From: Ustilago trichophora
Taxonomy: Eukaryota; Basidiomycota; Ustilaginomycetes; Ustilaginales; Ustilaginaceae
Length of the DNA stretch: 64,000 nucleotides
Assembly (NCBI GenBank): GCA_900323505.1
Contig: OOIN01000041.1
Span: 186,001 to 250,000, forward strand
Direction of reading: 5' to 3'
The notes below the pieces were generated by a model. It saw nothing but the letters and a program-made list of their open reading frames with translations. It did not search any database and was not told where the DNA came from. Shown one piece after another: positions 1,198 to 29,691 of the stretch. Positions within the stretch are counted from its first letter, which is position 1. Each line of letters begins with the position of its first letter. The translations under genes and the position numbers were made by a program.

Positions 1198-4100
1198 TCA
1201 TTGGGCGCTGGCGATCACAAGGTCAAGAGCAGGTGCGAGGCAAGTCCAATGATCGCCGCTTACCTCGTGGAAGACGAGGCTGGTCGAGGTGGACCAGAAG
1301 GATTGCCAGTCCTGCTCATTGGCCATGACACCCTTCAGCTTCGAGTGATCCGTCGCATTGACGACCATGACCTTTGCTGGCTTTCGATCGGTCGCCTGGA
1401 ATGCGAGGCAGCGGTACTCTGGCAGACTCAGTGCACATGATCGGAAATGCTCGCGGACCGTGTTGGACGTGATCCTGCTCAGCATCTCGTTCAGAGTATC
1501 CGTCGGAAGCGGCTTGATCTGTCGTGGACTCGGCGTATCGATCAAGCCAAGAAAAGCTACTTCGTGACCAGCCGACAGCAGACGACGAGCGACTTCGAGG
1601 GCAAAGACGCCTCCGATGCTCCAGCCAGCGAGCTTGTAAGGTCCGCACGTCTGAACGTGACACAGCATCTCGATGTAGCGATCGACCAGCTCGGCTATGC
1701 CTCGACTCCACGCTCCAATCTGTCCGAGGTAAGGCGAGTCAAAGCCGTAGACTGAGAGCGAGTTCGCCTCGTGATTGTTCTTCAGGTATACTTGAGCGGT
1801 GCCAGTGCCATCAGGGAAAAGGAAGAGAACGTTGTGGCCCTCGAAATGCCTCAGTTGAGGTCCACTGATGTGAAGCGGCGCTGAGTATGAGAAGCGCCGG
1901 TTGGGATTGGTGAGCACGTCCATGGGCGAGTCGCATCGAGCCTCGTGAGTTGCTCGCACCGGTGCTGCGTGGGATTTGACCTTCTCCGAGATCCCAGTGT
2001 GGCTCTGCACTTGAAGTGGTTGGTTGATCGGCTGAAGCTTGGGTTGCTCTGTAGGGGTGACTTTGCTCTCTCGCTCCTTGGCTGCTTTCGCTGCCTCGCT
2101 GGCAAAGGCCTTGGAGGAGAGCTGAACGAGCCTAGTCAGCATGTCTCGACGGATGCGTTTGAATACAATGTTCTCCATCACGCCCATGAACTGTCCATCG
2201 GGCAAGAAGAAGTAAGCAGAGCCTTTCGAGAGCTCCTTGTCCTGTTGCATCCTGGCGTAGACCTGCACCTTTGTCTCGCTGCCAGGCTGCAGCTTTCTCA
2301 AACCAGGCATCGTGACGATTCTGCCTATGGCCTCTGCCATGTAAACGAAGGGGCCTTCCGCAAAGCCAACGTTGCTGATGAAACCTGTCAGTCCTCCGAG
2401 ACTGTCTAGCAGCATGGGACTGCACAAGAAGCGCCCATTCACGGCACCTGCATTGTAGCTGACTTCGGACACAGCTTCGTCGCCGCTCTCCGTCATCCAG
2501 ATCGTGTTCATGCCTCGGAAGCCATCCAGATAGAGCACGATAGCTTCAAAGGTCTTGTAGATCGTGTCGGTCTTCATGATCGAAGCTGCTTGTGCCTTGA
2601 CGGTCGAGGCTGTCGTCATGATCAGATGTTGCAGCTTGGTCCAGTCACGAGAGACATATTCTTGTGCGATGATGCGTACCCGACACGAGCCGTACTGATG
2701 CTTCTGATGCTGATGCTGGCTGTGGGAGAAAAACTGCACAATGGAGCCATCGATGGAGGTTGGGTTGCCTTGCATCGAGACCTCGATGCTTTGTCTGGGA
2801 TCTTGCTCGTTGAGATACAGCGAAGCTACCATGGACAGGTTCAACACTTCAATGATCACGTCGTCCTCCTCTTGACTTGAGGGTCTAGCTTTGCACGGAT
2901 CCGTACGCCACCAGTACATGCCTGCTTCCTGCGCAAGCTCAACAAAGACGGTAGCTGGTGCCAAAGTTACGCCAAGGATGATGTGGCCTCGAATAAAGTC
3001 GCGGAAGGGTCGCTGATTGACGCGTGCGAGGAACAGGGCCGATGGTGAATCTCCGTCGAGTTTGACGCATTTCCACAGCAAGGCATGCAATGGGTTTGGT
3101 CGTCTCTGGAGGGTTGAGGACGTATCGTTGCGAACACCATTTGATGCGATCGACGTCTCGACGGAAGAGGACCCAGGGTCGCTATGCGTTACCAAGAGAT
3201 GATCTCGCAAGCCTCGATCCTTGAAGGGCACCCAGTATTCCTCCAGATCGAAGGGATACAAAGGGAGACTGGCAGCGAGGCCCTGGTGACCAAAGCGCAG
3301 ACCCAGATCGACAAAGACGCGCTCCCAGTCCAGATCGATCCCACGAGACGCGAGCTCCTTGACCAAGTCGAGCGTAGCAGTCCAAGACGAGCTTCCACGT
3401 CGAAAGGAAGCGAGGAAAGCGGGCGTCTTTCCAGAGTCGGCGTAGCAGCCTTTCAACATCGGAATACAAGTCGGATGAGGACCGATCTCAATCCAGGTGT
3501 TCACCTCGATTTTGACTTGCAGGTCGCTGATGGACTCTGCGAAGCGCACTGGCTGGCGAAGATGGCGTACCAGATACTGCGAATCGAAGTCATCATTGTC
3601 GGGGCCAATCACCTTGCCGAGAACGTTGGACGCAATGCTGATGTTCGGCCTGGAGAAGCGATGGCCGGCAGCAACACTGGCGTATGCCTCGACTAAGGGC
3701 TCCACGGCTCTGGAGTGGAAAGCATAGGGCACTGGAATAGCCATTGCTTTGATCTTTGGCTCATTCTGCTCGCATAGCCTCAACAGTTTCTCGATCTCGG
3801 CATTGCTGCCAGCAACCACAGTGTCAGTGGGACTGTTAAGGCAAGCGATCTCTAGCTTTTCGTACCCAGACTGTTCAAGGAGTTGACGGACCTTGACAGG
3901 ACCTTCTCGAATGGCGAGCATCGAGGACGCGTTGGGTTCGCACAGCTCCATCATGAGCATAGCACGACGGCCAACAAGCTCGAGCATAGCTCGCAGATCG
4001 ATGACGCCAGACATCCAGAGCGCTGCATATTCTCCGAGCGAGTGTCCTACGACGCAATCCGGCTTCACTCCCCAGTCGAGCAACATGGAAGCCAGCCCCA

Positions 4101-7100
4101 CCTCGGCAGCGATCAGCGCCAGCTGATACTGTGCCGGGCTAAAGCTGTCTGCTCTGCGTATCTGTGTAGTGCCTGCTTTCGAAGGATTTTGAGTCTCTCG
4201 GAGGGGGTGGATGACCTCGACCAAGTTGGGAAGCTCCTTTCTCAGGGCAATGCTGTTGCAGTTGTCGATGTGACAGCGGAAGGCGGCGCTGTGCTCGTAG
4301 AGCTCTCTAGCCATGTCGAGGTACTGTGCGCCTTGGCCACTGAATGCAACGCCGACCGTGCGAGCCTTTGATTCGATGTTCTCAGTGTCGGTGCAGACGG
4401 ACTCTTGACTGCTGAGGCACACCTTTGCTTCGACCAGGTTGGAGGGAGTGGCGATCAGACGGAAGGAATACATGGGATCGCTGAGGGATACGGCGCTGCA
4501 GAACTCGGTGAAGCTGACATCCTTGTTCGCTTCCAGGAAGGCGATGAGCCTCCTCCTCTTGGCATCCAGCGAGAACGGAGTAGCCGCGGTCACGAACAGG
4601 AGGTGATGCTTTGCAATGGATGCAATGTCATGAGCAGAGTCGCGCACCCGAGCCGAGTTGCTCATCTTTGACAGCCGGTCCCGATAGGTGCTGCCTCTAT
4701 CCATGACGATCGACGAGTTGCCTCCTGCTGCGGAAAAGTTATCGACAAGCGTGAAAGCCGTCTCCACCCTGTCAAGCTTTGTCTCTTGCAGGGGGACATG
4801 CAATCCGTCGAGCGGTGGAAGCTTGGTGTTGAGCTTGGTGCGAATGCCGACGTGACGCGGGACTTCACCGTGCTCGTAAATCTTGACGGTCTTGATCATG
4901 CTGCTGGCTCCCGAAGCTGCTTCAGAATGACCAATGTTTGCTTTCACCGAGCCGAGGACGAGCGGCGACTCTTCTCCTCTTTTACCTTCACCAAAGGTCT
5001 GAACGATGCCGGTGACCTCCTCGAAATCACCGCTTTGCGTTCCAGTGCCGTGCATCTCGATGTAGGTGTAATCTTGCGGCATTGTCTTGCTCGCAAGCAT
5101 TCCTGCTTGATAAAGCCTCTTCTGAGTCGGGCCGTGTGGATGAGTGATAGAAAAGGATTCGCCGGAATGGTTGGTCGCGGCTGACGAAATGACTGCCAGG
5201 ATCGGATCCCCGTCCCTTACAGCGTCCGGAAGACATTTCAGCAGCATGATGGATACAGCATCGGCTCGCGAGTATCCCGCTCCTGCATCGTCCAGCGTCA
5301 TGCATTGAGATGAAGGCGACAGGAAGAAGCCTCTGTCTAGCCCGATGGTGATCTGCGGCTGTGTGAGGATGTTGACCCCTCCAGTAAGGGCAGCCGACGT
5401 CTCTCCGGACAGCAAGCTGTTACAAGCTGCCTCGACAGCGACAAGAGCAGAGCTGCAAGCTGTGTCGTAAGTACATGCCTCTCCTCGAAAACCGAAAGTC
5501 TCGTTGATTTTAGCCACGAGATGGGCGCGATGGGTGTTGGAGACCAGATCAGAATCGATATTGTGGCTCAGATGTTCGCGGTAGTCGTCGCTGCAGTAGG
5601 CGAGATGCGTACTCCATCTCTCTGGATGCTTCGGATGACGATGCGGAGAGAAACCATAGCCGGCTCTCTGTAGCGTCTCATGTGCAGTTAGAATGGCCAC
5701 TCGCTGCTGTGGATCGATCTTGGTGCAGTCGTCGCTGGTGAAGGTGTCACCAAGGATGCTCTTGTCGAACAAGCTGGAAGTGGCCACAAAGTTCCCCGTC
5801 TTGACGCGCATCACGTTGCGATCCCTATACGAGGCTGAATGGTAGTCTTGATACCGATACAGTCTAGAGGGAATCTGTGGACCAGATGAGTGGGAAGCGT
5901 AAGTCAGTCTGTGTCGCAAGGAAATCATCCATTCGATCGGTGAGCTTGACTTACCTCTTCGCACATATCCTTGCCCTCTTTCAGAAGTTGCCATAGCTGC
6001 TCCGCATCGTTGGCACCGGGCACACGGCAGGACAATCCGATGACGGCGATCTGCTGGCAGGGATTGCCCTGCACCTTGGACAGCTTGACGGGTTCATCTC
6101 CGAATCGATAAGAGTCCTTGGGATACAGCAAATGAAGCAGCTTGACGGCGATGTAAGGCAGTTGGAGGGAGTCAAAGGATCGTGTCGCGGCCATGGCACA
6201 TGCGTCGTTAATCGCTCCTCCTAGAAGCAGTAGCTCGAAGCGTGGAGCGTAGACACGAGAGCCAGCAAGATGCTCTCGGCAAAGCTTCAAAGCGTCTTCG
6301 AAATGCTTCTGTGATCTCCCCATGTCGGGAGACAGGATGAGCTTGCTGAGATCGATGTGGAAGTGAGCGTCGAGAGAAGATCCGAGCTGAGACTTGGGGT
6401 CCTTTATGAGCTTGACGGTGATCTGGCGGTCTTGCAAGCACTGTTCTAGCTTGACCAGAAGCTCGCTCCATTCGCTTGCGCTCAAGACTGGAACGATGGA
6501 ACGTTCGATCGCCAAAAATCTTCTCTTTTGGTCTCCATCGCCCGCAAGTAACACATCTTCGACACTGTCCCCACCCGAAAAGACAGTAGCGAATCCACAC
6601 ATGGTCTCCTCGAATGGTATGCCATCTTTTCGGCACGTTTCTGCCACGGAATAAATTGCATCATCATCTGCACGGAACGTGGTCCTTTGCTTTCCAATGT
6701 TGGAGCCGCGCAAGTTGCCCGAATCTAGATAGAAGTCAAGCCAGCTCGCCAGCCTGATCGTCTGGACGGCTTTGGCAATCAGCTCGAGAGTAGAGGTGAC
6801 GTCGTTCGCCCGTAGAAGCTCGATGGTCAAGAAGGACTCGGGATCCCAGACAGCGGCAAAGTCGCCTCGCATCGCATCCTTGAAGTCTTGTCGGGAGGAG
6901 AGCACGATGCCAGTCTGCACCAAGGTGGTGAGCGAGATGGCGTAAGGCCACAGCTTCTTGATAGAGTCGATCTGTGCTAGCTCTTGAAAGGTGTTTGGTA
7001 GAGGAGACTCCTTGCGTGGGCCATCTTCAGCGATACGTGCGGCTGCGTTGACTTCGTGTCGCAATGCTTGATACGCAGAATCCAGAAAGGCCTTGAGGAT

Positions 7101-23900: not shown

Positions 23901-23958
<58 letters not shown>
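23901..23958. repeat. (CA)29 microsatellite, left flank of the transposon
   Basis: Twenty-nine uninterrupted CA units directly abut the left end of the mobile element. The right end abuts a (CA)n tract on the same strand, so the element appears to have inserted into one microsatellite. Confidence 0.95.
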
Positions 23959-23959
<1 letters not shown>

Positions 23960-24023
23960 GGGGGTTTCAAATTTTTCGAGTTTTTGAAAACTCGAGTTTT
24001 TTTCGAGTTTTCAAAAACTCGAG
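23959..24023 (+). repeat. Left terminal inverted repeat
   Basis: It starts AGGGGGTTTCAAATTTTT and holds two copies of a CGAGTTTT(T/C)...AAAACTCG palindrome separated by a T-rich 11-base spacer that the right end lacks. Confidence 0.88.
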
Positions 24024-24260
24024 TCTGCAATTGCTTATGTAAGCTCAGCCAAACTCAAAAAAAATTGGGTTTTCAAACATTCGCCTATTTTGAGTGTGGT
24101 GCGACCATTGAGTCTGGGTCTGGGTCGGGTCTACAAAGCCACGTGACATATCCCGACTTCCGCGCCTTCTAACTGCGCACTCCGCAAAGACCTGCTCAAC
24201 TTGTACCTTTTCGCTCTCTTCTGTCAACCATCGTCTCCAACATTTCCGCGCCTTGTCGGA

Positions 24261-25912
24261 ATGGAGAACTATCTTCATTCCCACGATGGCGAGAGCCAGA
24301 GCTTATCTCTTGGCTGCGAAAACACTTCTTTGACAACAATCTCTGCCAGCAAAAACATGGACAATTCAGCGCTTCCTGCGCTCAGGCTTCCTCTGCCCAG
24401 CGCGGGAGGCGAGTCCACAGGCTCCTCATCCGATGTTTCTCGCCAGCCATCATCTTCTCATCCTACAACCGCCGCTTCCAATTCTCGCACGCAGCAACAA
24501 GCATCTTCGTATCGCCGTACACTTCCTGCCCGCGCTACTCGCTCAGTCTCATCGGTCCCAAGCGCCTCATCGTCCCGGTTTACCAGAGGTGGAACGTACT
24601 TCAACTGGACGGACGAGGAAACCGAGCGTCTCGTGGACGTTATATACAACTCACCAAGATTCCAGATCGCTTTACTACGAGGTCGAGTCAGCAACGCCCA
24701 AGAAAAGGGACATAAAACGAACAAAGTCGTCACTTGTCAAGAAGTATTCAAGCTGGTGTTCCCCAACGAAGACGTCGCAAACTGTGGCGATCGTATTAAA
24801 GCCAAGCTTCGCGGGTTAGAAGAAAAGTACAAGAAGATCAGAGCTTCGTTGTCGCAAACAGGATCTGGTCTTCTTTTTTGCAACATGCAATCCAACCACT
24901 CGGTGAGTACGCCGACACTTTGTCTTGGTATGGTATGATTACATTGGGTTACATGGAACTGACGAACTACCTTTCCTTCCTTGACCTCTCTGCTTTAGGA
25001 CTTTACCAACCGTGCCGCAATCACTAAGACCTACCCTTGGTTTGAGCGGTGGCACGAGATGGCAATCAATCGCCCCGAGACCGGTCCTGTGGTCTTGCTC
25101 ACCAGCACGCCTTACGACTCTACGCCTGCCCCCGCCACTACGCCTGCCCCCGCCACTACGCCTGCCCCCGCCACTACGCCTGCCCCCAGCACTTCTGAAT
25201 CCAATGTACATGACATGGACGAGGACGATGACGACATCTTTCCTGGAGACCGTCGCATTCCTTCATTGGATGCAATTGCCGAATCTTCTTCCGAGGACCC
25301 ATTCTCAGGTCGGGTCCTTGCTTCCTCTTTGTCGCACCCGAACACGCATGCATCCCCTCTTCGCAACAATGCCTTGTCCAGCCACGCTTCTACCACCTCC
25401 ATCAGCACCCCTTTACCCGTCAACGACACCGTCCGCCGTAATGCCAGCTCTGCATTTGGTGCTGACGGTGAAGAAGATCTCAACAACAGATCGGCTCGTG
25501 ACTCGGTAACCTCGGATGCGATTCCCAGGTTTCGATCGACTTCTCAAGCAAGGGGGGGAAGCGCGACGATATCTCTGACCTCATGCGCATCTTCATCGAA
25601 GGCCAATCAGAGACACAAGTCAAGGTGGAGGAAGAGCGCACAAAGCGCGAGGAAGAGCTCACAAAGCGAGAGGAACAGCTCACAAAGCGAGAGGAAATGC
25701 GACTCAAGTACCAGGAAAAGGAGCATGAAAGGATGGAGCGGATGAGAGTTAGGGATCATCACTTCATGCTCAGTGTCCTTGGATACGCTCGTCCTTCTGC
25801 AGCCACCGATCACAACAACATGAACAACATGAGCCTCAACAGCATGATTGGTGGCTTGGATGAATCACTCCATGAACAGGGCGCCGAGACCTTCAACGAG
25901 CGCGTTCCTTAG
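24261..25912 (+). CDS. Myb/SANT-like DNA-binding protein of the Harbinger element, frame-disrupted
   Basis: The ATG at 24261 opens MENYLHSHDGES. Exon 1 ends at 24902 (GTGAGT) and exon 2 starts at 24999 (CTTTAG), phase 0, intron 96 bases. After a Ser/Thr/Pro-rich leader comes a Myb/SANT-like trihelix: FNWTDEETERLVDVIY, then KLRGLEEKYKKIRASL, then AAITKTYPWFERWHEM, with conserved Trp/Phe positions. Four TPAPAT repeats and an acidic patch follow. The frame in use until 25505 then runs into unrelated sequence, while a second frame from 25529 gives a clear charged coiled coil (repeated E-E-L-T-K-R-E-E) ending at 25912. The two frames join in phase if 25506-25528 is removed; it has GT and AG ends but at 23 bases is too short for a normal intron. 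A G7 run at 25552-25558 is another possible slip site. In this class the Myb-like protein binds the element ends and recruits the nuclease. Confidence 0.78.
25122..25193 (+). repeat. Four tandem 18-base repeats in the Myb-like gene
   Basis: Units of ACGCCTGCCCCCGCCACT, the last one diverged by two bases, encode Thr-Pro-Ala-Pro-Ala-Thr. They lie in the linker between DNA-binding domain and coiled coil. Confidence 0.9.
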
Positions 25913-26255
25913 TCTTGTGGCTTGGCCCAGCCACTCACAAACGAGCGACGTCTCTTCAATCGGTGTGGCTTGGTACTTCCTTCCTCGCTCTCCTGTACCA
26001 TTGTAACTTGTAGTGATCGTCGCATCATCATTCAATTCAACCGTCTGTCATCGTCTGTACATGATTGCGATCAACCTTGTCTCCAAATGGTTGGGTGTGT
26101 GCGCATATCCGAATTCCGAGAACGCGTGAGCTGCGCACTTTTGGTCTTTACTGCGCAGTTTTTGACTTGCTTTCTCACAACTCTTTCCTCCTTCCTTCCG
26201 TCAAACACCAACACCAACACCAACACCACCACCTTCGACGACATCACATACAGCC

Positions 26256-27803
26256 ATGGTTCGGGTCTCCTCCAAGCAGGAACTCCTCAATCAACTACAA
26301 ACAGCGATTCAGCATTCGATCCTTTTCGAAACCTTGTTGAATTCAGAATTGGCTATAGACAACAACTGCAGTGACAGCTACGACGACGACTACAAGTATG
26401 CTTTTGCACGTGCACTTGCCGTTATGTACTTAGCTGTCTTAAGCGACCGATACTCTGTGGAACGTCACCTCTTGTCTCGCCGCAAGGACACTATTCTGGA
26501 TCGACTTGACCACTACTCCGAATACAACCATAAGCTCTACCGCGGCCTAGTTCGCATGACACCGCAGGCATTCGAGGACCTCACACTACGACTCAGCTCA
26601 ACGGATGTCTTCAAGAACACCAGGAATTACAGGAGGGTTCAAATGCAGATTGCGGTCGGGTTGTACTGCCTAGGTCGATCGGGAAATGGCGGAGGCGTTC
26701 GTGATGCTGCCTTTGCTTGCGGGTGCTCATGGGGTTCCGTCCATCTTTGGACTGAGAAGACAATCAAGGCACTTTACGAGATCAACACCGAGGTAGTCAC
26801 CTTTGCTACCGAAGATGAACGCGCCAAGGCCTCCGCCTGGGTTAAGGAAAAATCTGGCGTGGAAGAATGGGGTCGCGGATGGCTTGTTGCAGACGGCACA
26901 CACATCAACCTCGCGTGGAAACCTGCAATGAATGCTCGAGAGCACTACTCGTACAAAGGTGACTACACTTTCAACGTCGCTCTTGTCTTTCTTCCTCATT
27001 CTCTTCGCATTGTGGAGTCAGTCGTTGGCCATCCTGGTTCTTCTCATGACTCGCGTGTCTGGGCGTCTGGCCAGGGCATCGTAGCCAAACCTCGTCTGCA
27101 TCTGGACGAAGGCGAGTTTGTCTGGGTGGATTCCGGATTCGGGTACTCAAGCTATTCTGTCAGTCCATATGGAAATACTTTCGCTGACCAGAGCCGCGAC
27201 ATCAGGTTCTTCAACTTCAGCATGTCTCGCATCCGCGTTCGAGCAGAGCATGGAATCGCCTACCTCAAGAATTGCTTTCAGTGCCTAATGGGTTATCGAG
27301 GAAACCTATATCGAGAGGAGGACCACCAAAAGGCGGCGTACGCCATTCAAGCATGCATCATTGCCCACACATTTGCCAGCCGTTACGACAGACCCGACGA
27401 TGTAGCCGAACATCTGTTGGAAATGTATTCCCCTGAAGTTGTCCAAGATGTCACAGCCGAACTCAGCTCTTACCAGCAAGCTACGGAAGGTGCAAGGGTA
27501 CACCGTCGAGAGAACCAAGTTCGTTATGAACAGGAACTGGCACGTGCGACGGAAGGCATGTCTCAACGGCAGCTTGCCACCTTTAGGGCTGATGCCGCTC
27601 ACGCTCTTCGAGAGGAAATGGTTACCGCTTTGTTCACATCTTATTCTCGCCGATTCGAAGATACAACCGCGGCCTCTAGGCGAAGAGGCAGGACAGAGGC
27701 TGGACTTGAATCGGAACAGGGACGTGTCGCTCGACGCAACGAGGCACGAAGAGCTCAAAGGTCACAGCAGGCTCAACAGTCACAGTCTCAGGACGCGCAA
27801 TAG
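26256..27803 (+). CDS. PIF/Harbinger-type DDE transposase (DDE_Tnp_4, HARBI1-like nuclease)
   Basis: The single uninterrupted frame of 515 residues starts with ATG 26256. Residues 95-175 show the helical N-terminal part with a helix-turn-helix-like segment (VRDAAFACGCSWGSVHLW) typical of these nucleases. The RNase H-like core keeps every acid: Asp213 in VADGTHINLAW, Asp265 in GHPGSSHDSRVWA, Asp292 in FVWVDSGFGYSSY followed by PYG, and Glu331 in RVRAEHGIAYLKNCFQ. The family cuts and rejoins transposon ends together with a Myb-like partner, which is encoded just upstream. The last 90 residues are charged and Gln-rich. No stop or frameshift is seen, so the enzyme could be functional. It carries no intron. 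Confidence 0.93.
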   Translation: MVRVSSKQELLNQLQTAIQHSILFETLLNSELAIDNNCSDSYDDDYKYAFARALAVMYLAVLSDRYSVERHLLSRRKDTILDRLDHYSEYNHKLYRGLVRMTPQAFEDLTLRLSSTDVFKNTRNYRRVQMQIAVGLYCLGRSGNGGGVRDAAFACGCSWGSVHLWTEKTIKALYEINTEVVTFATEDERAKASAWVKEKSGVEEWGRGWLVADGTHINLAWKPAMNAREHYSYKGDYTFNVALVFLPHSLRIVESVVGHPGSSHDSRVWASGQGIVAKPRLHLDEGEFVWVDSGFGYSSYSVSPYGNTFADQSRDIRFFNFSMSRIRVRAEHGIAYLKNCFQCLMGYRGNLYREEDHQKAAYAIQACIIAHTFASRYDRPDDVAEHLLEMYSPEVVQDVTAELSSYQQATEGARVHRRENQVRYEQELARATEGMSQRQLATFRADAAHALREEMVTALFTSYSRRFEDTTAASRRRGRTEAGLESEQGRVARRNEARRAQRSQQAQQSQSQDAQ

Positions 27804-28136
27804 GATGCAGTGGCGACGAGAAGCGCCTTGCCCAACAGCGCACTCCTCTCGCCCCAGCATCCCTTTCGAATCGAAACGCAGCAGGAGCCTCGTCGCCACT
27901 CGCCTAACCCTCAAGCAGTCCCCTCAAGAGCCAGGCCTCTAGCTTGAGGGAACCACACAGTTCACTTAAAGGTAAGTTTTATTCCGGCTCAAGAATGTTT
28001 TGCTACCTTCGAAGTTTCTGACAATTTCTATCTTTCATCCATCTCGCAGCTTCATCACCACTTCACTTTCCTACATCGTCACCGTCGGCACTCCTCGGTT
28101 GCCCTCTCCTCGCCATCATTGCTGAGGAGGACTCCC

Positions 28137-29348
28137 ATGTCGCTCATCCACAACCGATGCGAGTTCTCGGATCGCCAGGTCGTTCGCATTCAGGAGACTC
28201 CCGACGTCGTTCCTGATGGTCAGACCCCTCACACCGTAAGCATGTGCGCCTACGACGAATTGGTCGACGTCAGCAAGCCTGGTGACCGCGTCGAGATCAC
28301 CGGTATCTTCCGAAGCACACCTGTCCGCGTCAACCCTCGACAGCGTAGTCTCAAGAGTCTCTACAAGACATTCGTTGACATCCTTCACATCAAGCGCACC
28401 AACGCCAAGAGGCTCGGCGTTGATCTCTCTACTCGAGACGCTTCCGAGCAAGCTGCCGGCCCTGGCGCGCAAGCTGTCGGTGTCGGCGGTGAGGAGGACA
28501 ACGAGGATGTCGATGTGCAGAGCGGCTTTGGTGGAGATGCAACTCACAGTGTCTTGCACGAAGTGAAGGAGCAGCAGACGCTCAGCATCGCCAAGGCCGG
28601 TATCATTACCACCCTCAATGCACGTGCCTCGATCCTCACGGCTGCCAACCCAACAGGCTCGCGCTACAACGTCAACCTGCCCATCACCAAGAACATCGAT
28701 CTTCCTCCTACCCTCATCAGTCGATTCGATCTGGTCTACCTGGTGCTCGACAAGATCGACGAGGCCAACGATCGCCGTCTGGCTTGCCACCTGGTCAGCC
28801 TCTACTTGGAAGACAAGCCCGACACTAGTGGCAAAGACATTCTGCCCATCGAGACACTCACCGCCTATATCTCTTACGCACGCAACCGCATCTCGCCGGT
28901 CCTCACCAAGGAAGCCGGTGACGCTCTCGCTGCTCGCTACATCGAGCTGCGTAAAGTCGGTGAGGACCCACGCAGCGCCGAGGGCCGAATCACTGCTACG
29001 ACAAGACAGCTCGAATCGATGATCCGTCTGTCCGAGGCACACGCTCGCATGCGTTTCGCCGACGAGGTTGTAGTGGACGATGTTGAGGAGGCAGCCCGTC
29101 TGATCCGCAAAGCAGCCAAGTCTTCAGCTACCGACCCGCGCACTGGCCTTGTTGACCTGGACCTCATCAACACAGGCCAATTGTACCACCAGCGCAAACT
29201 TGCTGGCGATCTGCGACGCGAGCTCCTCCAACTGCTCGACGAGATGGGCAGCGGCTTTGGCAGGGCTACCTCTCCTTCGGGCCCTTCGTCGACTGCCCCG
29301 ACCAAAGCTGTTCGATACGTCGATTTCGCCAAAACGCTCAATGACTAG
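28137..29348 (+). CDS. Captured MCM4 (CDC54) helicase fragment lacking the ATPase centre
   Basis: The ORF (403 residues from ATG 28137) is unmistakably MCM4: MSLIHNRCEFSDRQVV, DGQTPHTV, PGDRVEITGIFR and VDILHIKRTNAKRL match the end of the MCM N-terminal domain; VLHEVKEQQTLSIAKAG, LPPTLISRFDLVYLVLD and TTRQLESMIRLSEAHARMRF match the part after Walker B through the sensor helices. Between them the protein jumps in frame from an acidic linker (GGEEDNEDVDVQSGFGG) to DATHSVLHEV, so about 130 residues with Walker A (GDPGTSKS) and Walker B (DEFDK) are absent. It also lacks the zinc-binding N-terminus and the C-terminal winged helix. Full-length MCM4 is about 850-1000 residues. It lies inside the transposon, 333 bases after the transposase stop, in the same orientation. 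The frame stays open over 1.2 kb. It could encode an ATP-binding-dead MCM4 fragment, or be recently trapped cargo. Confidence 0.88.
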   Translation: MSLIHNRCEFSDRQVVRIQETPDVVPDGQTPHTVSMCAYDELVDVSKPGDRVEITGIFRSTPVRVNPRQRSLKSLYKTFVDILHIKRTNAKRLGVDLSTRDASEQAAGPGAQAVGVGGEEDNEDVDVQSGFGGDATHSVLHEVKEQQTLSIAKAGIITTLNARASILTAANPTGSRYNVNLPITKNIDLPPTLISRFDLVYLVLDKIDEANDRRLACHLVSLYLEDKPDTSGKDILPIETLTAYISYARNRISPVLTKEAGDALAARYIELRKVGEDPRSAEGRITATTRQLESMIRLSEAHARMRFADEVVVDDVEEAARLIRKAAKSSATDPRTGLVDLDLINTGQLYHQRKLAGDLRRELLQLLDEMGSGFGRATSPSGPSSTAPTKAVRYVDFAKTLND

Positions 29349-29602
29349 TCGACGGTGACGGTTTCTGTGTCATTGTTCCTGATAACTCAAGCTACCTCAG
29401 CGTTGCCATCTTTGTATATACAGATGTTTGTGTTGTGGCCACCACCGTCTTCAATTGAGTCTTTGTGACATGCTTTCACGTCTGATATGTGCGGGATTTC
29501 GGAATTCGGATCACGACTAGTCGGCCGTGTGAAGACCAGACTCGAGTCTCCTAGACCCAAACTTGTTGCACAAAAATGGGGGCGTCAAAAGTTGAGTAAA
29601 CG

Positions 29603-29653
29603 CGAGTTTTTGAAAACTCGAGTTTTCAAAAACTCGAAAAAATTTGAAACCCC

Positions 29654-29655
<2 letters not shown>
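29603..29655 (-). repeat. Right terminal inverted repeat
   Basis: On the minus strand it reads inward from 29655 as AGGGGGTTTCAAATTTTTT and then the same CGAGTTTTTGAAAACTCGAG palindrome as the left end, minus the left end's 11-base spacer. Confidence 0.88.

Positions 29656-29691
<36 letters not shown>
29656..29691. repeat. (CA)n microsatellite, right flank of the transposon
   Basis: This 36-base AC tract continues the repeat found at the left boundary. Confidence 0.92.

Follow-up and report, generated by a model that had tools for sequence, protein, structure and literature searches.

The element and its insertion site

The 64,000-nucleotide stretch of the Ustilago trichophora genome analysed here (contig OOIN01000041.1, positions 186,001 to 250,000; hereafter the window) contains a complete DNA transposon of the PIF/Harbinger superfamily, which carries, together with its DDE transposase and a weakly Myb/SANT-like gene, a piece of the host gene for the replicative helicase component MCM4 (Table 1). 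We consider it likely that this is one member of a recently active two-gene family whose MCM4 passenger was acquired at the DNA level, has three internal deletions, and has been patched from a resident MCM4 gene.

The element occupies exactly the positions assigned to it in a preliminary description of this DNA, which had also recognised a Harbinger-class transposon with a complete DDE transposase, inserted in a CA tract. Its ends match as inverted repeats, perfectly over 18 bp and with one gap over ~43 bp; it is flanked by CA repeats to the left and to the right, and ACA is duplicated at the target. Membership in the superfamily is given by the terminal inverted repeats (TIRs), the 3-bp target site duplication (TSD) and the 515-aa open frame of the transposase, which matches DDE_Tnp_4 (E=1.9e-18, 67 bits against a cut-off of 24.8), a Pfam family linked to Harbinger. 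The catalytic triad was read by eye from motifs and is putative; a search of the transposase against the PDB gave no match up to E=1. With ~43 bp, the TIRs fall inside the range of 25-50 bp given for Harbinger elements in the available text of PMC2572040. An Rfam scan of the window gave no match at gathering scores.

Within the CA tract the length of the window TSD is ambiguous (3, 5, 7 or 9 bp), and it is exactly 3 in nine other copies; a 3-bp direct repeat flanks every one of the ten copies with both ends, of which eight belong to the window family and two to a sister subfamily. The triplets are ACA, AAT, AGT, ATT, AAT, ACA, AGT and ACT in the window family, and AGT (C44) and ACT (C16) in the sister subfamily, C-numbers denoting contigs of the same 38.8-Mb genome and C40w the window copy. 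The C16 copy has a mismatch at one end. Directly before the left duplication, CAC is present in six of the ten copies (in contig orientation), a regularity noticed after the fact. The pattern over copies, A-N-A/T, is unlike the TWA target triplet of PIF. The element family may favour CA-rich targets.

Table 1. Features of the element and its flanks (window positions).
Feature	Positions	Strand	Remarks
Complete PIF/Harbinger-type element	23959..29655	+ (genes on + strand)	5697 bp; TIRs and 3-bp TSD; further full copies
(CA)n tract left of target	23901..23958	.	from sequence
TSD ACA, left copy	23956..23958	.	
Left TIR	23959..24001	+	~43 bp, 18 bp perfect
Myb/SANT-like gene, exon 1	24261..24902	+	domain from ~24603
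Myb-like gene, exon 2	24999..25745	+	frameshifted in window copy
DDE transposase	26256..27803	+	515 aa; presumed triad D213, D265, E331
MCM4 block 1	27817..28091	+	near MCM4 start codon, through first intron, into exon 2; 87% to C8
MCM4 intron remnant	27972..28049	+	GT..AG kept; alignment with both resident genes
MCM4 block 2	28089..28138	+	50 bp; 96% to C8
MCM4 block 3	28135..28540	+	OB-fold part; 0/377 consensus differences where residents agree
MCM4-piece open reading frame	28137..29348	+	403 aa
MCM4 block 4	28536..29363	+	just past Walker B to near C terminus; 95.9% to C8
Right TIR	29613..29655	-	
TSD ACA, right copy	29656..29658	.	
(CA)n tract right of target	29656..29691	.	from sequence

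Structure of the MCM4 piece

The MCM4 piece lies between the stop codon of the transposase and the right end of the element. It consists of four blocks collinear with the gene, corresponding to coordinates 2489-2765, 2930-2979, 3807-4212 and 4661-5488 in the stretch fetched around the resident gene on C8; what lies between the blocks in the gene, three stretches in all, has been deleted, and short matches, not all of them perfect, mark the joins. The internally deleted MCM4 frame already seen in the preliminary description spans 28119-29348, with an ATG at 28137, has matches to the domains MCM (E=3e-33), MCM_lid and MCM_OB, and finds an MCM4 chain as its top match in the PDB. As we take the MCM4 motifs to lie, the deleted parts contain the zinc finger, Walker A and Walker B, and what is retained includes sensor 1, the region of the SRF arginine finger, the lid and part of the OB fold. 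The intron in block 1, whose status is inferred from the frames of the resident genes, indicates that the source of the piece was DNA and not mRNA.

Two resident MCM4 genes, on C5 and C8, have open frames of 965 and 963 codons and are separated by a synonymous divergence (dS) of 0.31. Because both remain open, the piece within the element is cargo. The contig pairs C5/C8, C1/C2 and C40/C41 resemble two diverged subgenomes in the assembly, and a two-subgenome assembly suggests either a hybrid or a mixture of two species.

Copies of the element in the genome

A search of the same genome for the element ends, as proposed in the preliminary description, finds the 18-bp end 21 times (none for the reversed, backward control) and leads to the ten copies with both ends. 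Genome-wide, the window family comprises eight full-length copies, every one of which carries the MCM4 piece, the seven others being 98.6-99.4% alike over the aligned length. Beyond these, C17a runs into a contig end, and C38 is an old remnant with a single end in the stretch read. The sister subfamily consists of two copies, C16 and C44. Solely from the near-identity of its copies, we infer that the window family has recently been active.

No element is present at the three homeologous places looked at (for three of the ten sites), namely the counterpart of the window on C41 and two on C2 that correspond to copies on C1; these places are diverged homeologs rather than clean pre-insertion alleles. 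That on C41 lacks the MCM4 piece and the CA tract as well, and together with the eight full copies it upholds the view of the preliminary description that MCM4 is cargo.

Two copies were themselves targets of insertion. C37b (C37:399219-412287) has a ~7.4-kb retrotransposon with 255-bp long terminal repeats (LTRs) inside block 3, and the matches on either side of it overlap by 4 bp, likely a target duplication. C44 has a 947-bp insert resembling a solo LTR in the 5' part of its MCM4 piece, where the adjoining matches overlap by 5 bp.

More distant transposases, at 46-55% identity, are found in at least ten places; judged by coordinates, ten of them have no MCM match within 70 kb. On C30, the stretch downstream of such a transposase has no MCM4 match, and the element apparently ends ~240 bp past the transposase stop with CCCCCT, this being the side that was read.

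Blocks of different ages

The four blocks differ markedly in their distance from the resident genes. Where the two residents agree, the family consensus departs from them at 26 of 233 sites (block 1), 1 of 42 (block 2), none of 377 (block 3) and 27 of 773 (block 4). Fisher P is 2.9e-5 for block 4 versus block 3, and 3.0e-5 for block 4 versus block 1. The rate of block 1 is the least certain, since part of this block is non-coding and the alignment of its first 40 bases is poor. The old remnant C38, which has stops in its MCM4 sequence and still contains the sequence between blocks 3 and 4, has ten derived changes in common with the family consensus in block 4. In block 3 the two have no such change in common, and C38 shows 34 of its own. 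As block 3 is unchanged in the family and shares nothing derived with C38, unlike block 4, it appears to have been renewed after the split from C38, most likely through replacement by a fresh copy of a C8-like gene.

Gap repair is probably the cause of such patches, judging from the sequence of the blocks and their joins. The element would excise, and the resulting gap would be repaired by copying; the growing strand would then switch into the resident MCM4 gene, with which the element already shares sequence, copy a patch of it, and rejoin at short matches. The outcome would be internal deletions, blocks of different ages, and an MCM4 piece that matches the gene of its own subgenome.

Two subfamilies and two resident genes

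In C16 and C44 the MCM4 piece stands behind the same transposase stop codon, with a longer 5' side and an early end, and only an N-terminal piece is kept. In its main block, identity is 96.5-96.7% with the C5 gene and 83-85% with the C8 gene. When the aligned 5' part is compared between C40w and C16 (one copy per subfamily), C40w agrees with C8 and C16 with C5 at 37 sites, and none shows the opposite pairing; the remaining sites comprise 2 common to the elements alone, 26 private to C40w, 3 private to C16 and 7 without a simple pattern. The transposases of the two subfamilies are 86% identical (dS 0.51; nonsynonymous divergence, dN, 0.077), and their dN/dS of 0.15 indicates that they were kept by selection over that time. 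Set beside this dS of 0.51, the values are 0.31 for the resident MCM4 genes and 0.06 for block 4 of the element against C8; the transposases either split before the resident genes or evolved faster.

There is a substantial chance, somewhat short of even, that MCM4 was captured twice independently, each subfamily taking it from the gene of its own host, with no older shared capture that was overwritten. The 37 sites that divide the subfamilies by resident gene, with none opposite and two shared by the elements, fit such a history, as does the youth of the sister piece, C16 and C44 having just 6 common changes at 587 sites; moreover, repeated transduplication of one type of gene (ULP, in plant Mutator-like elements) is described in the available text of PMC2528002. 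However, both pieces sit in the same slot and in the same orientation behind the same stop, the MCM4 match starting ~5-13 bp past it in the window and 19 bp past it in C16, and a weak similarity of the backbone resumes 79 and 31 bp after the piece (score 25; best of 500 shuffles 24). Capture of the same gene among thousands, twice, also needs a reason. Finally, since block 3 appears to have been replaced in the window lineage, resident genes do seem to serve as templates for such copying, and for this reason we lean towards the overwriting of one ancestral passenger from each resident gene and infer one founding capture rather than two.

The passenger might even be useful to such repair: as a stretch of homology to an essential and always-present gene, it could rescue gap repair that fails after excision, an idea that we find improbable. 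If true, cargo would be renewed in each host species, which would explain why one gene occupies this slot in both subfamilies, in each case in the version of its own host.

Selection on the MCM4 piece

The preliminary description had suggested that a defective MCM4 could act on the licensing of host replication. That the truncated protein works as cargo, joining or blocking the MCM2-7 ring and altering licensing or the timing of transposition, seems to us very improbable. It is true that the 403-aa frame is open in seven of the eight full copies (the eighth, C37b, being split by the retrotransposon) and that the piece retains the arginine-finger region, the lid and some of the OB fold. A plain pairwise comparison of block 4 with C8 also gives a dN/dS of 0.42 (dN 0.0265, dS 0.0625), a value explicable without selection on the element, as the constrained C8 branch contributes to it and the strong C>T/G>A bias of the mutations is left out of account. 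For these reasons we relied on a polarised count, which uses only sites where both resident genes agree and drops the same changes randomly on the resident gene. In block 4, the eight-copy consensus carries 24 coding changes (8 silent, 16 replacing and 0 stops, for a random expectation of 8.4, 15.2 and 0.4), and the 43 polymorphic changes in the MCM4 frame divide into 17 silent and 26 replacing (15.8 and 25.9 expected), with 0 stops against 1.26 expected (P=0.26). For the consensus changes the chance of zero stops is 0.67. As stop-free outcomes are not unusual by chance in either set, the open frames are uninformative on function. We conclude that the MCM4 piece drifts, with nothing to indicate that selection has maintained its protein. 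Neutral-looking changes, the absence of the zinc finger, Walker A and Walker B, the stops in C38 and the restriction of the sister subfamily to an N-terminal piece all speak against a working protein, and the proposed effect on licensing is not supported.

Relative to the consensus, C>T and G>A together account for 38 of the 43 polymorphic changes of the MCM4 frame, as if cytosine deamination or a process resembling repeat-induced point mutation had acted on the copies. Block 3 has 23 polymorphic changes (9 silent, 14 replacing; 11 of the 23 in C14) and block 4 has 20. Constraint was considered as the cause of the unchanged block 3 and rejected, since its silent sites are unchanged too and its polymorphism is as high as that of block 4. 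The 11 changes of C14 in block 3 are its own with respect to the consensus; many are C to T, four are adjacent, and the base matches that of C38 at two of them and that of C5 at one.

That the MCM4 piece is a host pseudogene lying between two separate elements, a view for which we found no supporting point, is refuted by the eight full copies at different places, with the same ends and their own 3-bp duplications.

Evidence against patching and drift

Several observations weigh against the history that we favour, in which a drifting passenger was patched from the resident gene. At five polymorphic sites of block 3 the base of C38 recurs in one or two of the copies. Every one of these changes is C>T or G>A, so we take them as repeated hits, although they could be remnants of an older block 3. 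Gap repair is deduced from the patches and the joins, and the joins share few bases, some of them imperfectly. The sites shared by the elements that argue for a single founding capture number two, one of them in only one sister copy. Because C38 retains MCM4 sequence that the family has lost, the near-identical right edge of the deletion in both subfamilies would have to be convergent or copied. With respect to drift, the pairwise dN/dS of block 4 points the other way from the polarised count, and the polymorphisms of the transposase within the family (11 silent, 20 replacing among the eight copies) look no more constrained than those of MCM4.

The genes of the element

The transposase frame is free of stops in all eight full copies, and also in C16 and C44. 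Concerning the second gene, the preliminary description was right about its presence, and the Myb/SANT-like character is tentative: in the window Myb_DNA-bind_4 is found at E=0.00092 and 20 bits, below the Pfam cut-off of 27, and the second exon is frameshifted here. The match in C16 (E=7.2e-5, 23.6 bits) is likewise below the cut-off, and the 536-aa spliced product of C1b gave no Myb match. The exon limits, with one intron, are inferred from GT..AG and open frames. In six of eight other copies (C1a, C1b, C14, C17b, C37b and C42) exon 2 is in frame and the gene reads 518-560 aa; C17a reads 159 aa, and C37a yielded no reading. As the gene is frameshifted in the window copy and intact elsewhere, the window copy may rely on other copies for its movement. 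An AlphaFold model of the Myb-like domain (107 aa, five-row alignment) was too poor for use, with a predicted local distance difference test score (pLDDT) of 45.7. A tandem repeat at ~25121-25190 in the gene encodes six-residue PAPATT units whose number varies between copies, the six open ones differing in length by multiples of six. According to the available text of PMC8616336, the second gene of PIF/Harbinger elements carries a SANT/myb/trihelix domain.

Relation to known captures, and significance

The preliminary description regarded a host replicative-helicase gene as new cargo for this element. The MCM4 cargo is borne out; capture by PIF/Harbinger elements is known in kind, from the available texts of PMC2528002 and PMC2572040. 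In grapevine, PIF elements have captured host exons and introns (PMC2528002): Pifvine-3 resembles our element in being a PIF with a 3-bp TSD, some copies of which share captured exons and introns beside ORF1 and the transposase, but its captured DNA lies in a long 5' region, its host is a plant, and the available text describes no overwriting by the source gene. In C. elegans, the Harbinger element Turmoil-1 (PMC2572040) contains pieces of two host genes, one of them including an intron; unlike in the window, these lie inside the inverted repeats, they derive from other genes, and there is one complete copy. A fragment in Turmoil-1 is said there not to be under purifying selection, and a capture hotspot is suggested. 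Pack-TYPE elements (PMC8903248, available text) are DNA transposons with captured coding DNA, Harbinger-PIF being among those surveyed, but they are non-autonomous by definition; the window element has captured coding DNA between its TIRs, and it has its own transposase, open in every full copy. Gene capture by a DNA transposon in a basidiomycete is known from the Helitrons of Pleurotus ostreatus (PMC4289320, available text), which are rolling-circle elements and captured other genes.

In the literature searched, as far as its texts were available, we found no fungal PIF/Harbinger element with captured MCM4 or another host gene, which is no proof of absence. No paper was found that joins MCM4, a transposon and gene capture, nor, within the limits of the search, any report of repeated copying from a resident gene into such cargo. 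The present case differs in its host, in the gene captured, and in the hint that resident sequence was copied in more than once; capture itself was already known.

The MCM4 piece is a warning that an open frame in transposon cargo is no evidence of function. Captured fragments are usually viewed as single, decaying snapshots of their source, whereas here the passenger would have been partly renewed from resident sequence. The presence of two resident versions of the source gene, each matched by one subfamily, makes this genome a natural test of capture and gap repair.

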